Shown here piece by piece: positions 35,101 through 40,873 of a stretch of DNA of 64,000 bases. The stretch is from Dysosmobacter segnis (GTDB lineage Bacteria > Bacillota > Clostridia > Oscillospirales > Oscillospiraceae): contig NZ_JACOQI010000001.1 in NCBI RefSeq assembly GCF_014297285.1, forward strand, positions 62,001 to 126,000. Reading direction: 5' to 3'. A model generated the notes under the pieces. That model did no database searches. It was not told the origin of the DNA and worked only from the letters and a program-made list of their open reading frames with translations. Each line of letters begins with the position of its first letter. Within the stretch, counting starts at the first letter, position 1. The translations under genes and the position numbers were made by a program.

Positions 35101-35245
35101 CTATGTACCCTTGTATTTTTTTCGGGTGGCGATGCCGCCCCGGATGTGCCGCTGGGCCTTGTTCACGTCCAGCACCTCCTTGACCTGCAAGTACAGCGCC
35201 CGGTTAAAAAGGGGCAGCCGTTCTGAAATGTCCTTGTGTACCGTG
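35101..35245 (-). pseudogene. spoIIID: spoIIID, 3' part (C-terminal half), separated by the inserted element
   Basis: Read on the minus strand from the ACCGTG core, this stretch encodes VHKDISERLPLFN, then the segment VKEVLDVNKAQRHIRGGIATRKKYKGT and a TAG stop at 35101-35103. This is the C-terminal half of SpoIIID; the RHxRGGxATxxKYK motif is diagnostic. It has no start codon or ribosome site of its own. The 5' part lies 5.4 kb away at 40705-40814. Joining at the core yields 82 codons in frame plus stop. I call it interrupted and restorable, not decayed: no stop or frameshift is seen in either part. Confidence 0.93.
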
Positions 35246-36850
35246 TTCCACATTGGTGTCGGTTTCTACGGTCTCCGTCAGACGAACGGGAACGGTGAAA
35301 ACCTCGTCGTACTCGCCGCCGATTTTGAAGTAGACATAGATTTCTTCTTTGCTCTTGACAACGATTTTGTCAATGATTTTCTTGAGGTCTGCGTTTGTCA
35401 GATTTTCCGTAAGGGTGAAAGCGGAAAAATCGGACACGAACGCAGACAGCCTCTTTTTGACCTGCTTCATGACCTCCAGAGATTTGTCCGCTTCATTCAG
35501 CTTGAAGCGAAGTTTTTCAACGCGGGCGTTCAAAGGGAGCATATCCTGTTCGGCCTCGTCCAGCGTGATGATACCGCGGCGAGCCATTTCCTTAATGCGT
35601 CCGCGTTCCTTTTCCAGCCCGTCAATCTGTTCTTTGAGTTCGTCCACGGTAAGCCCCAGCGTAGAGCCGAGATATTCTTGAATGATAGCATTACACTTCT
35701 GCTCCGCCATGGCACAAAACTTCTGCTTGTCCCGCACCATAGAGCCAAGCAGTTGGCGAATGGAGTTCAACAGCCAGTCCTCGTCAATGCGGATGTGCTC
35801 GCTTTCGCAGCGGTCAGAGCCATAGACGGAACGGTGTGAGCATACCCACCACGCACGAACGGGCGTATTCTCCGAGTATTTCCGCTGAACGCGGCGATAG
35901 GAGAAGCCGCAGGAGCCGCACTTGATAAGGTTGGAAAAGATGTGCTTTTCACTTTTTGTTCCAAGGGTGGGATAGCGTGCGGCGTTTTCCTTTCTCAACC
36001 GCTGAGCCTTTTCAAATTGTTCGTCGCTGATGATACGGAACTCCGGTCGCTCAACAACAATCCAGTCCTCTTCACTATGCTTGTCCCGCTGATTTGTCAG
36101 CGGGCCTTTCGTGGTCTGTCTGCCGTTGACAACTTTCCCGATGTAGATTTGATTGGTAAGGATTTTTCCGACGGTCGCATTCGACCAAGCGTCCTTTTTG
36201 TTCTTTTTCGTCTTGACGCCGTTCTCGTGGAGATACTTGGCGATACGGGCTTGTCCCCAGCCGTCCTCCGTATAGCGATTAAAGATAAAGCGGACGGTTT
36301 CGGCTTCTTCCGGATTCGGCTCCATCGTCCATTTGTCGATACGGTCATAGCCGAATACGAAATTAGGGACAATGCCTTTCTGCTTGCTCAAGTTCTTGGC
36401 AAACTTGATACGGGTGGACATCTTCTCGCTTTCGCTCTCCGCCAGCGTTGCGAACAGGTTCAAAATAACGGGGTCAACATTCGTTCCGCCCAAATCGACA
36501 TAGTAGATGTTAATGCCGAGTTCGTAAAGTTCCGACATGACATTGACGAAGTTTTTGACATTACGGAACAGGCGGCTGACATCTTTGACATAAACGCGGT
36601 CGAACTTGTGGGCTCTCGCGTCCCGCAGCATTTCGTTCAATGCCTTTCTGTTCTCCATTTTCGTAGCCGACTTTCCGTCGTCGCAGTAAATGCGGGTGAG
36701 CGTGTCGCCCCGCTGCTCAATAAAGGTCTCAAAAAATGACCGCTGGTTGATGAGGGAACTTTTCTGTTCCTCCTTGTCCGTCGATACGCGAATATACGCC
36801 ACCGCCCGCATTTTCTGGGGATTTGCATAGGCCAAGTTGCTGTTCATCAT
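35204..36850 (-). CDS. Large serine recombinase (site-specific integrase/excisionase)
   Basis: A 548-residue large serine recombinase. The N-terminal resolvase domain has the catalytic Ser in AVAYIRVSTDKEEQ and the conserved DRVYVKDVSRLFRN. The recombinase domain follows (about 170-290), then a zinc ribbon (IKCGSCGFSYRR...WWVCSH...RCES) and a long coiled-coil segment (about 400-480). The start at 36850 has AAAGGAC upstream. The last 11 codons and the stop lie beyond the attachment core, in spoIIID DNA, so the tail changes on excision. It lies at the junction, same strand as spoIIID, as spoIVCA does in skin. Confidence 0.95.
   Translation of the reverse strand: MMNSNLAYANPQKMRAVAYIRVSTDKEEQKSSLINQRSFFETFIEQRGDTLTRIYCDDGKSATKMENRKALNEMLRDARAHKFDRVYVKDVSRLFRNVKNFVNVMSELYELGINIYYVDLGGTNVDPVILNLFATLAESESEKMSTRIKFAKNLSKQKGIVPNFVFGYDRIDKWTMEPNPEEAETVRFIFNRYTEDGWGQARIAKYLHENGVKTKKNKKDAWSNATVGKILTNQIYIGKVVNGRQTTKGPLTNQRDKHSEEDWIVVERPEFRIISDEQFEKAQRLRKENAARYPTLGTKSEKHIFSNLIKCGSCGFSYRRVQRKYSENTPVRAWWVCSHRSVYGSDRCESEHIRIDEDWLLNSIRQLLGSMVRDKQKFCAMAEQKCNAIIQEYLGSTLGLTVDELKEQIDGLEKERGRIKEMARRGIITLDEAEQDMLPLNARVEKLRFKLNEADKSLEVMKQVKKRLSAFVSDFSAFTLTENLTNADLKKIIDKIVVKSKEEIYVYFKIGGEYDEVFTVPVRLTETVETDTNVEHGTQGHFRTAAPF
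35240..35245 (-). other. Left attachment core (attL/attR side next to recombinase)
   Basis: ACCGTG on the plus strand (CACGGT on the gene strand). Outside lies the spoIIID 3' part; inside lies the recombinase 3' coding sequence. Confidence 0.8.
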
Positions 36851-36890
36851 TAGGGAATCGTCCTTTCTATATTTTAATTGTTTTATATCT

Positions 36891-36923
36891 CTGAAAAGAG
36901 CCACCCCCGAAACCGAGGGTGGC
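36891..36923 (-). terminator. Hairpin between the 44-codon gene and the recombinase gene
   Basis: GCCACCC...GGGTGGC is followed on the minus strand by TCTTTTC. It looks like an intrinsic terminator or attenuator placed just before the recombinase, so it could limit recombinase expression. Confidence 0.65.
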
Positions 36924-36956
36924 GTCAAGAATTATAGTAAGTTTTCGGCATCTCTA

Positions 36957-37091
36957 TCAGCCTGCTCTTTTCATCTCGTTAATAATTTGCTCGGAAATCG
37001 TCCTTGCCGCGACATCCGCGAGCATGGCAGTAATGCCCATTTCCAATTCCTGACCTTCCTCTTTCGTAAAAGAACGGGCAGGTAAAGCCAT
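36957..37091 (-). CDS. Small acidic/basic mixed helical protein, 44 residues, upstream of the recombinase
   Basis: Encodes MALPARSFTKEEGQELEMG and continues to end QIINEMKRAG. AAAGGAGG lies upstream but 14 nt from the ATG, a long spacing. I do not recognise the family. It lies about 100 nt before the recombinase on the same strand, separated by a hairpin. Small genes adjacent to serine recombinases often encode recombination directionality factors; this is the nearest candidate here, on position alone. Confidence 0.55.
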   Translation of the reverse strand: MALPARSFTKEEGQELEMGITAMLADVAARTISEQIINEMKRAG

Positions 37092-38444
37092 AATTAAGTA
37101 AGTTTCCTCCTTTCCTTATCGGTATTCTATTGTTATGATGGCTTGTCCCATATTATGTTCGGGAGTGGTGTTTTTTTCGGAGACATCTTTATTATAACGC
37201 AAAAAGTTTTCGGAAATGGACAATATGGAGTGTTTCTATAATTTTTGACGCTTTGTTGTGTTTTGACGATATATTTTCGTTAGACTTTCCCCTTGATTTT
37301 TTTGATTTTTTGCGACAAGATTTCTGCTCCCCGCCCGTGCGGAACAGATTTTGAAAAACAATATTCTAAAAGCCCTCCGGTTTTGTTGATTTTCGCCTTG
37401 TTCTGCTAAATATTACTGGTTTTGTGCGGAAAATATTCAAAAAATACTATGAGCATTAGATTTTCAAAATATTAAAAATCTAACAGACAAAAAAGACGCT
37501 TGGCGGTCATTCCGTCAAGCGTCTTTCTTCTTCACCAGTTTGCTTTCTTTCGCCTTTTGTCATTCGGGCGGCCATAGTACATTCCTGCCTTGGTTATTTG
37601 TGTAGCGAAAATCTCTCCGCTCGGAGAGTGAGCGGCTCAACGCCGTTCCTACTATAATAGTATGCGGTGCTTCGGCAAATATAACTCTTTTTCGCGGGAA
37701 TCAAACATTTTTATTTCCTTTATGCTTTTGGAGAGAGAAAAGAGTATAGTATTTCTTATATTTTTTAATTTTTAACCCCTTACCTGAAATTGAAAGGCTT
37801 TTCGTCTATCATCGGGGAGGTGGGGGGGTAGGTCAAGACCCGTGCCACAACCGGCAGGCCATTTCAAAATCGGGGGAATGAATCTGTTCCCTCGATTTTG
37901 GCCGTTCAATTTCATTCCCCCCTGTGCTTATTAAAAATAAAAAAAGCACAGGGGAATGAAAGAACATCAAAATGTTCATCAGGTTATCAACCAAGCTCCG
38001 ACGGTCTTAGGTCTGCCATTATACCGTAAGGCTACCACGCCTACTCACTCGCCCCCCACAAACAGGACGGTCTCGCTCGCCGCTCGATGACTGCGGCAGC
38101 CTCTCTCGTGGGATTCACGGCTCGCACCTTTCACGCCCCGAAAGCAAGGGGCGGTACTCAGATTTTGAGCAAGAAAAGGACGCCACCCTTTCACGGCCGC
38201 GTAAAGGGTGGTTAGCCCTCCAGTTATTTTTGCGTGAGACTTTCAACACGGGCGACGCTTCCATTCTTTCGTGCGGGCGTAGCCAGCCCTGTTTTCAATT
38301 TTGCTTTCCTTATACAATAAGCAGGGTTGCCCGAAATATTCCGTTTTAGTGTTTGACAATGAAAATATCTTGCTATTGTGCTGACTTTCCATTAAAATAA
38401 TAATATCATTGGGCTAACAAATCAGGATTTATGGAGGAAATAAT
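37092..38444. other. Long noncoding, structured, partly AT-rich stretch inside the element
   Basis: No convincing gene over 1.35 kb. It contains a terminator-like hairpin AAAGACGCTTG...CAAGCGTCTTT (37492-37526), CAAAATCG...CGATTTTG (about 37866-37900), a stem TTCATTCCCC..TGTGCTT with complement (about 37911-37961), CCACCCTTT...AAAGGGTGG (38183-38213), and a G-rich tract GGGGAGGTGGGGGGGTAGG (about 37815-37833). The GC-rich part 37800-38300 differs in composition from the AT-rich flanks. It may hold a noncoding RNA or an origin-of-transfer relic. TTGACA at 38353-38358 with a weak TATTGT may drive the next gene. Confidence 0.5.
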
Positions 38445-38939
38445 ATGGGTCTATTTGGAAGTATTTTAAAAGGCTTGTTTTCTTCAGGCGACAACGATAC
38501 CATTTGGCATTGTGATGGTTGTAATGCTATTTTAAATGAACAAGATGGATTTAACACAGATAGTGGGACTTGGATATGTGCAGAATGTGGTTTTGTAAAT
38601 GATGTAACCCCGGATAATATTTATGAAAGTGAAGAAGATTATCAGGAGTCTATGGGGATTCCGAGATGTCCAAATTGTGGAGGTATGGTGCAGGGTGATG
38701 CACCAGATGCAACTTATTGGTTTAACTGCAAATCGTGCGGCGAACGCTTTTACCTTGAAGATGGTGAATTGATTAGTCCATTTGATAGCAGCAGACAGAA
38801 TAGCAGTCGTATATGCTCAAATTGTGGACAATCTTTAAGTGGAGGAGAATATACCGCTCCGTGGGAAAACGGAAATAACTCTGAAGGGTATGTTATATGC
38901 CCGCATTGTGGGTATACCAATTTTGAGTGGGATGATTGA
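38445..38939 (+). CDS. Triple zinc-ribbon cargo protein (164 residues)
   Basis: Three paired CxxC zinc ribbons are visible: CDGC...CAEC, CPNC...CKSC and CSNC...CPHC. The N-terminus MGLFGSILKGLFSSGDND could be an amphipathic or membrane-associating helix. The function is unknown; zinc ribbons of this kind occur in many bacterial accessory proteins. Codon use is strongly AT-biased, unlike the GC-rich host genes, indicating foreign origin. GGAGG lies 9 nt before the ATG. It is the only gene of the element on the plus strand and ends just before a strong bidirectional terminator. Confidence 0.85.
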   Translation: MGLFGSILKGLFSSGDNDTIWHCDGCNAILNEQDGFNTDSGTWICAECGFVNDVTPDNIYESEEDYQESMGIPRCPNCGGMVQGDAPDATYWFNCKSCGERFYLEDGELISPFDSSRQNSSRICSNCGQSLSGGEYTAPWENGNNSEGYVICPHCGYTNFEWDD

Positions 38940-38970
38940 TAAGACGGGTTCTGGTTTGTACGGTAAGCAA

Positions 38971-39004
38971 AGGAGAGCCGAGCGGTCAGCCGCTCGGCTC
39001 TCCT
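38971..39004. terminator. Bidirectional terminator between converging cargo genes
   Basis: AGGAGAGCCGAGCGG pairs with CCGCTCGGCTCTCCT around TCAG. It lies between the zinc-ribbon gene (+) and the 233-residue gene (-). Confidence 0.88.
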
Positions 39005-39706
39005 TTACACGATAAGCCCCGCCACCTCTGGACAGGTCAGCGTGATAAAGTCCAGCCGCTCCATTATCCACCAATACCGCCCGTCTATGCGGCGGAGAAT
39101 AGCGGCCTTCGCTCTCTCGCTGGCGACACACACCGTCAAGCGTGGTTCTATCTCGTCGATGTCCTCGAACTCGCTTTCGCTGTCAAAGAAGCCCTTTATG
39201 CGTTTGGCTATGGTTGCGGGGTTTGTGGACTGCGGAAAATAGGCCATGAGCCGAACGCCGTGCTTGCCGTCGTCCTTGGGGACGATACCCTCTGAATAAA
39301 AGCCCTGTGCGTGTAGGAGGGTGAGGTAGCCGCTCCAGTCGGCTTTTCGGTGCTGGCTCATTGTCCCCGCTTTCAGCCCGTCCAGCACAAGACCACAGTG
39401 TAGGGGGACGGTCGGGAACTTCGCCAGCCAATATTCCGTCAGCAGAGCGGACTTCTTGAGGTTGTAGCCCGTCAAGGTGAAGCTCCTATTGGGGTTGCCT
39501 ATCCATTTGTAAAAGGCATGACGGACAATGAGAAAACGCAAGCCCTCCACCTCGTACCGTTTCAGGAAATTCTTTTTGGCAAGTTCGTCTATATCGTCAT
39601 GGGAAACATCACTGAAGGCAAGGAGCTGCCGCTCCAAGCAAGCCCCGCCGAAAGCGTCATAGACAACTTCTAAGATTTGTACCTCTTTGGGTGTCAGTTC
39701 ATTCAT
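39005..39706 (-). CDS. Integrative-element protein of unknown function (233 residues)
   Basis: The N-terminal region MNELTPKEVQILEVVYDAFGG followed by DDIDELAKKNFLKRY looks like a winged-helix fold. The rest contains no motif I recognise, apart from a late ERAKAAILRRIDGRYWWIMERLDF segment. Such proteins accompany replication-relaxation-type genes in Clostridia integrative elements. It lies 10 nt downstream of the 182-residue gene and should be cotranscribed. A role in element maintenance, transcription control or anti-host functions is possible; none can be assigned. Confidence 0.6.
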   Translation of the reverse strand: MNELTPKEVQILEVVYDAFGGACLERQLLAFSDVSHDDIDELAKKNFLKRYEVEGLRFLIVRHAFYKWIGNPNRSFTLTGYNLKKSALLTEYWLAKFPTVPLHCGLVLDGLKAGTMSQHRKADWSGYLTLLHAQGFYSEGIVPKDDGKHGVRLMAYFPQSTNPATIAKRIKGFFDSESEFEDIDEIEPRLTVCVASERAKAAILRRIDGRYWWIMERLDFITLTCPEVAGLIV

Positions 39707-39716
39707 ACGCTCCCCC

Positions 39717-40265
39717 TCATGCTCTCACAAAATGAATACTCGCCCCTATGGCTTGGGCGGTGGCTTCTTTCAGTTCCAGTTTTTCCTGCGTGTAGTTGCT
39801 GGTCGTGATTTCGACAGCTACCAGTTCGCCTGATGTGCTGGTATAGACCATATCAGGCACGGAGTGCCGCTGACCGTCTCCGTGGCCGCTCCCGTGTAGC
39901 GACTCGCGGTATATGTCCCGTGTCTCTGTCTCCGAGTTGGCGGTCATGCGTTCAGTGGGCGACAGGCCGACGTACTGGCGGAAAAGCGTGGTGTCATGCT
40001 TCACGGCGTTGGGCTGCTTCGGGTAGAATGTCCGCCCCTGTAGTGTGTCTATCTTCCGAATAAGGTTTTTCCCTTTACCCGTGTAGGTCAGCACAGACTG
40101 CCCACGGCAATCTACACGCTGTTCCAGATAGCCCCGCTTCAAAAATGTTTCAACACGGTTGCAGCTGATGATTTTCTCCATATCTGCCCGCATGGCATAG
40201 CCGCAGACCCGCAGTCCGTTTAATGCTTGAATGTCTCGGAAGTTCAAACGGTTGATATTACGCAT
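39717..40265 (-). CDS. Replication-relaxation-like protein with a possible nuclease-fold C-terminus (182 residues)
   Basis: The N-terminal half (RDIQALNGLRVCGYAMRADM, VETFLKRGYLEQR, GQSVLTYTGKGKNLI) reads as a winged helix, as in replication-relaxation family proteins of plasmids and integrative elements. The C-terminal part has SVPDMVYTSTSGELVAVEITTSNYT, which resembles a PD-(D/E)xK core but with Thr where Lys is usual. The start at 40265 has AAAGGAGG at correct spacing; the frame to 40490 upstream is hairpin DNA. It is the first gene of a two-gene unit with the 233-residue protein. The family assignment is tentative. Confidence 0.6.
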   Translation of the reverse strand: MRNINRLNFRDIQALNGLRVCGYAMRADMEKIISCNRVETFLKRGYLEQRVDCRGQSVLTYTGKGKNLIRKIDTLQGRTFYPKQPNAVKHDTTLFRQYVGLSPTERMTANSETETRDIYRESLHGSGHGDGQRHSVPDMVYTSTSGELVAVEITTSNYTQEKLELKEATAQAIGASIHFVRA

Positions 40266-40287
40266 AAGCAGAAACCTCCTTTTTTGA

Positions 40288-40577
40288 CATACTACGGCGA
40301 TTGAACGCCGTAGTATGCGAAAAAGAGGTTTGACACAGCCCCGCAGGGCTGTGAAGCCTGCTCCCGTCCCTCGTCCCCCGTCTTTCGTCCCCTCGTCCCA
40401 CCGCCCGACCAGAGCAAAGCCGCAAAAAAACAATGTCCGCCCATACTCCGCAAGAGTGTGGGCGGCATTGTGGTCTGCCACGCTCCACAAGCGTCGGCAG
40501 ATTTTTTCGGCGGTGTCCTGCTATTTTGTGATAGCGGCAAAATAGCGGGACTTGCGGCGGGAGGGACGGTGCTATTT
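40288..40577. repeat. Cluster of consecutive hairpins upstream of the cargo operon
   Basis: No gene is seen in 40266-40577. At least five hairpins occur in about 250 bp: CATACTACGGCG/CGCCGTAGTATG (40288-40317, perfect), CACAGCCC/GGGCTGTG (40334-40353), CCGCCCATACTC/GAGTGTGGGCGG (about 40439-40467), CTGCC.CGCT/AGCG.CGGCAG, and CTATTTTG/CAAAATAG. The first lies just before the ribosome site of the 182-residue gene. Confidence 0.75.
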
Positions 40578-40814
40578 TCACTTTCGTTCTTTTTTCCCCT
40601 TGTAAAAAGGCGGTACGCTCATTGAAAGCATACCGCCTTTTGTCCTATCACGCCGAGAAATCGAACACCATATTGAACCGACACTTAAAGTATCTACGGT
40701 ATGGACCGTGGATTTGCTGATGCCGAATTTGGCAGCGGCGGCGCGGACCGTGGTCCGGTTCTCTATGATGTAAAGAGCAAGGCGCTCCGCCCGCTCCTCC
40801 ATATTTCCCTTCAA
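40578..40814 (-). CDS. spoIIID: spoIIID, 5' part (N-terminal half) running into element sequence
   Basis: Positions 40705-40814 are native spoIIID and encode MKGN, then MEERAERLALYIIENRTT, and end in KFGISKSTVH. SpoIIID is the small mother-cell DNA-binding regulator that adjusts the sigma-E regulon and is needed for sigK transcription. The helix-turn-helix is cut at the KSTVH recognition helix. Beyond the core the frame reads about 40 foreign residues to a stop at 40578, giving a non-functional protein. I prefer the TTG start at 40814: GGGGAG is 8 nt upstream and it gives the Bacillus N-terminal length. ATG 40802 is the alternative. Confidence 0.9.
   Translation of the reverse strand: MKGNMEERAERLALYIIENRTTVRAAAAKFGISKSTVHTVDTLSVGSIWCSISRRDRTKGGMLSMSVPPFYKGKKERK
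40605..40641. terminator. Hairpin near the right end of the element
   Basis: AAAAGGCGGTA pairs with TACCGCCTTTT. It can stop transcription that enters the element from the spoIIID promoter, or leave it rightward. Confidence 0.75.
40705..40710 (-). other. Right attachment core
   Basis: The second ACCGTG copy, within the codons for S-T-V of the SpoIIID helix-turn-helix. Inside the element it is preceded by GTATCTACGGTATGG on the plus strand. Confidence 0.8.
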
Positions 40815-40844: not shown

Positions 40845-40873
40845 ATCCTATGCGGTCCAAAACAGGCTTATGC
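40845..40873 (-). promoter_or_regulatory. Possible sigma-E-type promoter of spoIIID
   Basis: On the minus strand GCATAAG (40867-40873) lies 14 bp before CATAGGAT (40845-40852). This resembles sigma-E promoters (GCATATT-like -35, CATACAAT-like -10, 13-15 bp apart), with some mismatches. spoIIID is sigma-E dependent in Bacillus and Clostridium. Predicted start is about 25 nt before the TTG. Confidence 0.35.

Follow-up and report, generated by a model that had tools for sequence, protein, structure and literature searches.

A probably excisable serine-recombinase element that splits spoIIID at a single histidine codon in Dysosmobacter segnis and many other Clostridia

Sporulation genes interrupted by intervening DNA are on record for sigK, spsM, spoVFB (spoIVFB in one paper), spoVR, gerE, yabG and kamA (PMC10747680, PMC5595907, PMC6957869). 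The skin element of C. difficile sigK encodes a large serine recombinase (LSR), CD1231, and a directionality factor, CD1234; the recombinase is constitutive, and CD1234 is under the control of sigma-E and SpoIIID (PMC5025042). Here we describe a 5,465-bp LSR element that splits spoIIID in a 64,000-nucleotide stretch of Dysosmobacter segnis DNA (contig NZ_JACOQI010000001.1, positions 62,001 to 126,000; "the window", meaning the whole of the stretch analysed). SpoIIID is one of the regulators that stand close to the top of the mother-cell programme. The assignment of the element as a precise, likely excisable, skin-like intervening element is well supported. We further consider it probable that the LSR excises this mobile element at a single fixed position, likely within the mother cell during sporulation, giving a working SpoIIID.

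The element resembles C. difficile sigK skin (PMC5025042) in that an LSR element splits a mother-cell regulatory gene that precise excision restores or, here, would restore, and in that the promoter of its LSR looks sigma-A-like, in keeping with the constitutive recombinase of skin; it differs from skin in having as its target spoIIID, which acts before sigK, in being 5.5 kb long with no phage genes found, and in that CD1234-type control by SpoIIID is unworkable here. The gin element in gerE of B. cereus ATCC10987 is, like the window element, a non-phage element with a serine recombinase in the gene for a very small mother-cell transcription factor, but gin is 28.6 kb long, has three recombinases and is found in some B. 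cereus and B. toyonensis strains (PMC5595907), whereas the element described here has one LSR, lies in another gene and belongs to a set found in many Clostridia. The yin element in yabG of C. botulinum likewise places a serine recombinase in a split sporulation gene, and its integrated and excised forms coexist; it is described as unique to one strain (PMC10747680), and its gene differs from the one interrupted here. A further likeness is offered by SP-beta, a temperate phage that uses a sporulation gene, B. subtilis spsM, as its attB, the gene being restored in sporulation (PMC4191935, PMC6957869); spsM serves spore envelope maturation, whereas spoIIID encodes a regulator. Developmental excision by a serine recombinase, XisF, is also described for the fdxN element in heterocysts (PMC6957869), and the window LSR is not a member of the XisF family (108.3 bits against model NF041201, with a cut-off of 375). 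No report of an intervening element in spoIIID was found in the open-access literature, subscription papers and preprints lying outside that scope; the original prediction, which was made from the window sequence alone, had likewise known of no described case. A review (PMC12713726) lists spoIIID genes borne by phages, and a prophage paper (PMC5027557) mentions such genes, each a different claim from an element-split spoIIID.

The split gene and its attachment sites

In the window, spoIIID lies on the minus strand in two same-strand pieces with a gap of 5,465 bp between them. The 5' half (40702..40814, minus strand) runs from a TTG start at 40814 to the crossover CA defined below and matches PF12116 at positions 3-38 (E 5.6e-12); the 3' half, with the stop codon (35101..35236, minus strand), matches PF12116 at positions 35-80 (E 4.5e-20) and scores 68 bits against TIGR02844, a half being expected to fall short of the cut-off of 111.5, which applies to the whole protein. 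Joined in silico, the halves give 249 nt and 82 codons with neither a frameshift nor a stop; the product, LKGNMEERAERLALYIIENRTTVRAAAAKFGISKSTVHKDISERLPLFNRALYLQVKEVLDVNKAQRHIRGGIATRKKYKGT, retains the motif KSTVHKDISERLP, has the conserved helix exactly restored and is nearest, among named proteins, to that of Oscillibacter (90-91% identity). The interrupted gene is spoIIID and not sigK, which sets the element apart from a sigK skin insertion. At one end of the element, an intact open reading frame (ORF) of 548 amino acids (35204..36850, minus strand) encodes the LSR, with Resolvase, Recombinase and Zn-ribbon domains (PF00239, PF07508 and PF13408, all over cut-off) and a match to the PHROG 95 integrase (E 7.5e-105). 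The G+C content of the element is 48%, vs. 58% for the window.

The two halves, their joint and the LSR had been described in the original prediction, and re-analysis reproduces them: PF12116 matches both halves at agreeing coordinates around the 5,465-bp gap, the recomputed joint is the same 249-nt gene, the LSR at one end has the three domains named above, and the hexamer ACCGTG is present at both junctions (35240..35245 and 40705..40710, a spacing of 5,465 bp). The prediction had, however, taken the ACCGTG joint as the crossover site, and here the att sites point elsewhere. The symmetry of the att arms centres on the CA of the His codon in KSTV-H-KD (plus-strand positions 35237-35238 and 40702-40703), which would place the crossover at the CA adjoining the 6-bp repeat and outside ACCGTG itself. 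A crossover at CA leaves the element length of 5,465 bp and the protein unchanged (GTA or GTC, both Val).

With CA as the predicted crossover, attL (35237..35264, minus strand) comprises the CA at 35237-35238 and the left arm AACCGACAC at 35256-35264, and attR (40676..40703, minus strand) comprises the CA at 40702-40703 and the right arm GTGTCGGTT at 40676-40684. The attP reconstructed for the window element has perfect 9-bp inverted arms, AACCGACAC/GTGTCGGTT, each 17 nt from CA, and its whole-site score, 16/30, equals the highest of about 2,000 shuffles. In the same way, attP was rebuilt for 31 elements for which both ends were available. The arms of the 31 are 63.4% complementary when centred on CA, vs. 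19.5-30.5% at 16 other centres within 4 nt; 26 of the 31 score above 16/30, and the other 5, the window element included, score no higher than the top shuffle. For the 24 elements that are less than 80% identical, the mean score is 19.3/30, vs. 7.8 ± 2.4 (maximum 16) for shuffled sites. The arms vary by subgroup (ACCGACAC in that of the window, ACCGTTC in another), the attB codons are constant, and the right arm of one element, that of G449, looks degenerate. A scan of the loci with a degenerate attB pattern gave 1 match. We conclude that the junctions have the organization of LSR sites: hybrid attL and attR, and attP arms symmetric about a common crossover dinucleotide.

The C-terminus of the window LSR is encoded across attL and into the spoIIID 3' half, in another frame. 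In the 120 listed homologues, of 1,078 found, 80 LSR tails have T or A as their last residue, the outcome predicted if translation reads through the junction; 3 tails continue in frame into the SpoIIID 3' half, 9 fit none of these patterns and the rest are in another frame, these classes having been defined after the tails had been inspected. In-frame fusions of LSR to the SpoIIID 3' half are seen in P0100, P0105, P0109 and L158 (genome G759); such an element, when integrated, would specify a recombinase that ends in SpoIIID sequence. As a separate observation, the SpoIIID proteins P0121 and P0130 contain the TVHKDxSERLP segment twice, in tandem and in frame, exactly at the att site, as if they were aberrant recombination products.

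Related elements, joined loci and free attachment sites

Judged by sequence comparison, spoIIID-splitting LSR elements are a widespread family with a conserved attachment site, and the window element is no single case. One scan of a genome collection returned two LSR relatives (53% and 45% identical), each of which interrupts spoIIID at the same residue. In the relatives G001 and G002, the only spoIIID sequences are the two halves, separated by 11 and 33 kb. In a class-level sample, SpoIIID was found in 280 of 391 genomes, 20 were examined, and at least 8 show the split together with an LSR beside the junction or close to it. In a sample of the family of G037, the closest relative found (UvrC 55% identical), SpoIIID was found in 325 of 400 genomes, 34 were examined, and at least 24 are split with an LSR, the latter cut by a contig end in G556 and G742; both halves lie on one contig, in the same orientation and 2.5-53 kb apart, in 15 genomes of this sample. 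The insertion codon in the class and family cases is the same His codon. Of the 32 cases confirmed in the class and family samples, 29 have the LSR directly beside the 3' half, the exceptions being G138 and G645, where it lies at the 5' half, and G061, where it is about 2.4 kb off; the LSR reading frame is open in 33 of 33 cases examined. In the genus of G318, SpoIIID was found in 73 of 77 genomes, and in 29 of the 73 it occurs solely in split pieces, which include a 3' half in 25 and amount to a 5' half in the other 4; 10 of the 25 3' halves were checked for a neighbouring LSR, and all 10 have one, partial in one case. The genus of G138 has 2 split cases among 11. All of these counts are lower bounds, because the split candidates were chosen by weak SpoIIID scores. 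Candidates set aside were G502 and G679 (gene intact but divided by a contig break, the contigs overlapping by 77 bp), G555 (gene intact) and G527 (a partial, unsplit match). An LSR search with model A2 in 16 genomes with the gene at a contig edge gave 2 matches, of which the one checked against its junction (G589) disagreed, and a plasmid collection gave only two matches, both to spoIIID itself.

The original prediction had proposed seeking, among relatives, an intact spoIIID with the exact joint. At the protein level, this is provided by the metagenomic protein P0122, which has the exact join followed by the translated downstream flank of the window, its stop having been lost by a short in-frame deletion. 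Because P0122 combines the exact join with the window's own flank, the window locus also occurs uninterrupted. P0128 and P0132 have their first 74 residues and flank in common with P0122, with tails in the same frame after a deletion over the stop; P0123 has the same residues and a different flank; and P0124, with one residue different, represents 582 sequences. An empty attB at the same locus is thus seen in P0122 and also in the intact relatives L103-L108, L110-L112 and L003.

Several assemblies break at or near the attachment site. In G814 the 5' contig stops exactly at CA, and the 3' contig opens with its last 77 nt and continues into an intact gene; in G499 the 5' contig likewise stops at CA. 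Such breaks are what assemblers do when joined and interrupted forms coexist, with element-free strains and excision being indistinguishable in them. In other genomes, contigs break 55 nt (G838) or 77 nt (G847, G867 and G589) from CA, as would be seen if one element end were attached to two or more flanks. Contigs C12 and C87 of G838 carry two different spoIIID 5' flanks on the same element end in one bin, and, given these two flanks, we dropped the breaks of this second group as proof of circles.

Free attachment sites were seen in viral contigs. The IMG/VR contigs L010 (62 kb) and L014-L016 (50-119 kb) encode an LSR related to that of the window (35% identity), directly after which comes an unrecombined attP, 20/30 symmetric about CA, and no spoIIID match was found within the 21 kb of each that was examined. 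These attP sites count as two cases, because L014-L016 are identical at the site. L016 encodes a head maturation protease, the 65-kb element of G138 encodes a conjugative coupling protein, and the elements of G811 and G728 encode mobilisation proteins; these genes indicate that phage-like elements, elements like integrative and conjugative elements (ICEs) and mobilizable elements all use the site. The attP junction of the window element itself had 0 matches in IMG/VR, and a comparison of the window recombinase, as a single protein, with IMG/VR gave none. A sequence filed as "Bacteriophage sp.", L005 (MT838016), contains an LSR and a spoIIID 3' half, and some reports of phage-borne spoIIID could be attL halves.

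Proposed developmental excision and competing explanations

According to the hypothesis that excision is developmental, the LSR would recombine attL with attR, aided by a directionality factor; excision would join the halves, so that a working SpoIIID would be made; and timing would be set by the sporulation programme, by analogy with C. difficile skin. Excision cannot require SpoIIID, because SpoIIID is the product of the interrupted gene; sigma-E alone would be the natural candidate for the trigger. Before the spoIIID 5' half there is a sigma-E-like promoter match (40845..40873, minus strand; GCATAAG-14-CATAGGAT, 11/15) that is not significant alone, 11/15 being reached by 35% of 100 shuffles; the same -10 lies at nearly the same position in most of 7 intact relatives scanned. 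Before the LSR there is a sigma-A-like match (36931..36960, minus strand; CTGATA-18-TATAAT, 10/12, by consensus only). The original prediction had read the element as a skin-like sporulation switch, and that reading stands as regards the LSR, the intact att sites, the exact restoration of the gene and the skin-like anatomy; sporulation-timed excision would be a further step, to which the promoter match of the window LSR, sigma-A-like with none sigma-E-like, lends no support.

Evidence bearing on whether the split gene may remain in use comes from relatives. The host sporulation programme was judged there by one marker, spoIVA, which is present in 34 of the 35 genomes entered as split, including G499, where the element was not seen (an original count of 36/37 included the two contig-break genomes G502 and G679, since removed). 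The same marker was found in all 10 intact genomes and in 7 of 20 genomes without SpoIIID. Non-sporulating relatives with decayed halves, which the original prediction had named as grounds for rejecting its reading, were not found among those relatives looked at. In the G318 genus, the 17 split genes for which both halves are available contain 0 stops, and the median pairwise ratio of nonsynonymous to synonymous substitution rates (dN/dS) is 0.087 for the 17 split genes (126 of 136 pairs usable) vs. 0.106 for 28 intact genes (348 of 378), a result compatible with gene use and not decisive. In G728 contig C20, spoIVA itself is in two same-strand pieces, 236830-237279 and 489491-489769, 252 kb apart, possibly as another interrupted sporulation gene or through a rearrangement.

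Some elements contain housekeeping genes. The spoIIID element of G449 (L155:2212-8435) encodes ATP synthase A chain, alpha, gamma, beta and epsilon, and that of G435 (L151:2878-6256) encodes RibD, a lumazine-binding protein, DHBP synthase/GTP cyclohydrolase II and lumazine synthase. The F1-gamma gene in the former and the lumazine synthase gene in the latter are the only ones found in their genomes, either of which may be incomplete. With the sole copy inside the element, loss of the element would be costly in a growing lineage and not in a terminal mother cell. At three further loci (L282, L283 and L100, in G204, G849 and G826), a complete spoIIID lies about 2 kb beyond a spoIIID 5' half; the intervening ORF in G204 has an LSR-like stretch, seen by eye, and the loci appear to be element remnants in which the gene was restored by a second copy of the 5' half.

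Several observations weigh against developmental excision. No excision event has been observed, excision being deduced from sequence. The window LSR has no sigma-E-like promoter (best match 10/15, with shuffles averaging 11.0), and sigma-E-like scores in 18 LSR upstream regions are barely raised (11.6 vs. 10.7), a good site being present at a few of them, for example in G449 and G667. No protein of the element was identified as a directionality factor by matches to Pfam, NCBIfam or PHROGs, and the symmetry of the window attP, 16/30, is below the average of the elements. The interrupted form itself was not seen in G814 and G499, and the intact forms and assembly forks may come from element-free strains instead of excised cells. 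Among the hosts, G744 has no spoIVA and G002 has only a spoIVA fragment, at a contig edge. Split G138 and G061, which belong to one genus, are each nearest a different intact species, so that their insertions look recent and independent; because such insertions look recent, the dN/dS test is weak.

Alternatively, an ordinary mobile element (phage, ICE or mobilizable island) might block sporulation and be lost or excised at a low, undirected rate, the strains that sporulate being element-free. We regard this as unlikely, and a reversible sporulation block without developmental timing is nonetheless a serious rival: metagenomes commonly contain the joined as well as the split form (P0124 represents 582 sequences and the recombinase P0001 represents 201), the promoter match of the window LSR is sigma-A-like with none sigma-E-like, viral contigs and an ICE-like element use the same site, and some insertions look recent. 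Such a block accounts poorly, however, for a genus in which 29 of 73 SpoIIID-bearing species have only split genes, with no stops in the 17 that can be joined; for the retention of spoIVA by 34 of 35 hosts entered; for the only F1-gamma and lumazine synthase genes found in G449 and G435 lying inside elements whose loss should be costly; and for apparent remnants, in G204, G849 and G826, that are accompanied by a complete spoIIID. We favour developmental excision. That the locus is instead a dead relic, with decaying halves and an immobile element, would agree with the failure to see excision directly and with the degenerate look of the G449 right arm, but is very improbable given open LSR frames, undegraded halves, conserved att symmetry and a joined form at the same locus. 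An assembly artefact or chimera is scarcely credible: many of the relatives are draft genomes and several contigs stop at the junction, but 15 genomes of the family sample have both halves on one contig and one strand, the halves in G138 lie together on a 4.07-Mb contig, and att sites are symmetric in many unrelated elements. Equally hard to credit is a second intact spoIIID elsewhere that would make the split copy irrelevant, which the original prediction had named as a refutation. In this genome the analysis covered the window alone; among relatives, G001 and G002 have only the two halves each, and the confirmed split genomes have no full-length second copy, the extra matches being 5' fragments (G407, G449) and one sub-threshold match (G426).

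As a generalization of developmental excision that may well prove too broad, we tentatively propose that spoIIID serves as a general DNA-rearrangement gate in Clostridia. In this proposal, a clade of LSRs carried by phages, ICEs, mobilizable islands and islands with housekeeping operons would be specialised on one His codon; mother cells would delete the element, switching on the second tier of the programme, and the spore would keep it; and in some genera excision would be obligatory, confined to the soma, independent of SpoIIID and upstream of sigma-K. If excision is developmental, programmed rearrangement in sporulation would reach well beyond sigK and a handful of late genes: a regulator that acts early in the mother cell would be under its control in a considerable share of Clostridia, a large number of which are known from metagenomes only, and it would account for genomes that look spoIIID-defective. 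Reads across joined spoIIID or attP would then be a metagenomic marker of sporulation, and the elements would provide a set of recombinases with a common attB. If the block is reversible and untimed instead, the elements would represent a widespread means for mobile DNA to turn off host dormancy.

Other contents of the elements

Just upstream of the window LSR, an ORF of 44 amino acids (36957..37091, minus strand) has no family match in Pfam, NCBIfam or PHROGs and may encode an accessory or directionality protein. A small ORF lies directly upstream of the LSR in many, not all, of 30 elements, and these ORFs, alike within subgroups, are candidate directionality factors. The interval between the 44-amino-acid ORF and the LSR contains a terminator-like stem (36900..36923, minus strand), and stems in the region are no commoner than in shuffles (9 vs. 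8.5).

The cargo of the window element comprises three further ORFs. The first encodes a zinc-ribbon protein of 164 amino acids (38445..38939, plus strand), with several zinc-ribbon Pfam matches, mostly below cut-off, and one, PF07282, above its own. An ORF of 233 amino acids (39005..39706, minus strand) has no Pfam, NCBIfam or PHROGs match, and for one of 182 amino acids (39717..40265, minus strand) NCBIfam and PHROGs gave no match, nor did Pfam for the longer ORF from 40490. Phage structural genes were not found among the ORFs of the element in Pfam, NCBIfam or PHROGs, and the element does not qualify as a prophage on that basis. In Vescimonas fastidiosa (L003:1-5357), five consecutive genes annotated as encoding recombinase family proteins adjoin a barstar gene and an intact spoIIID.

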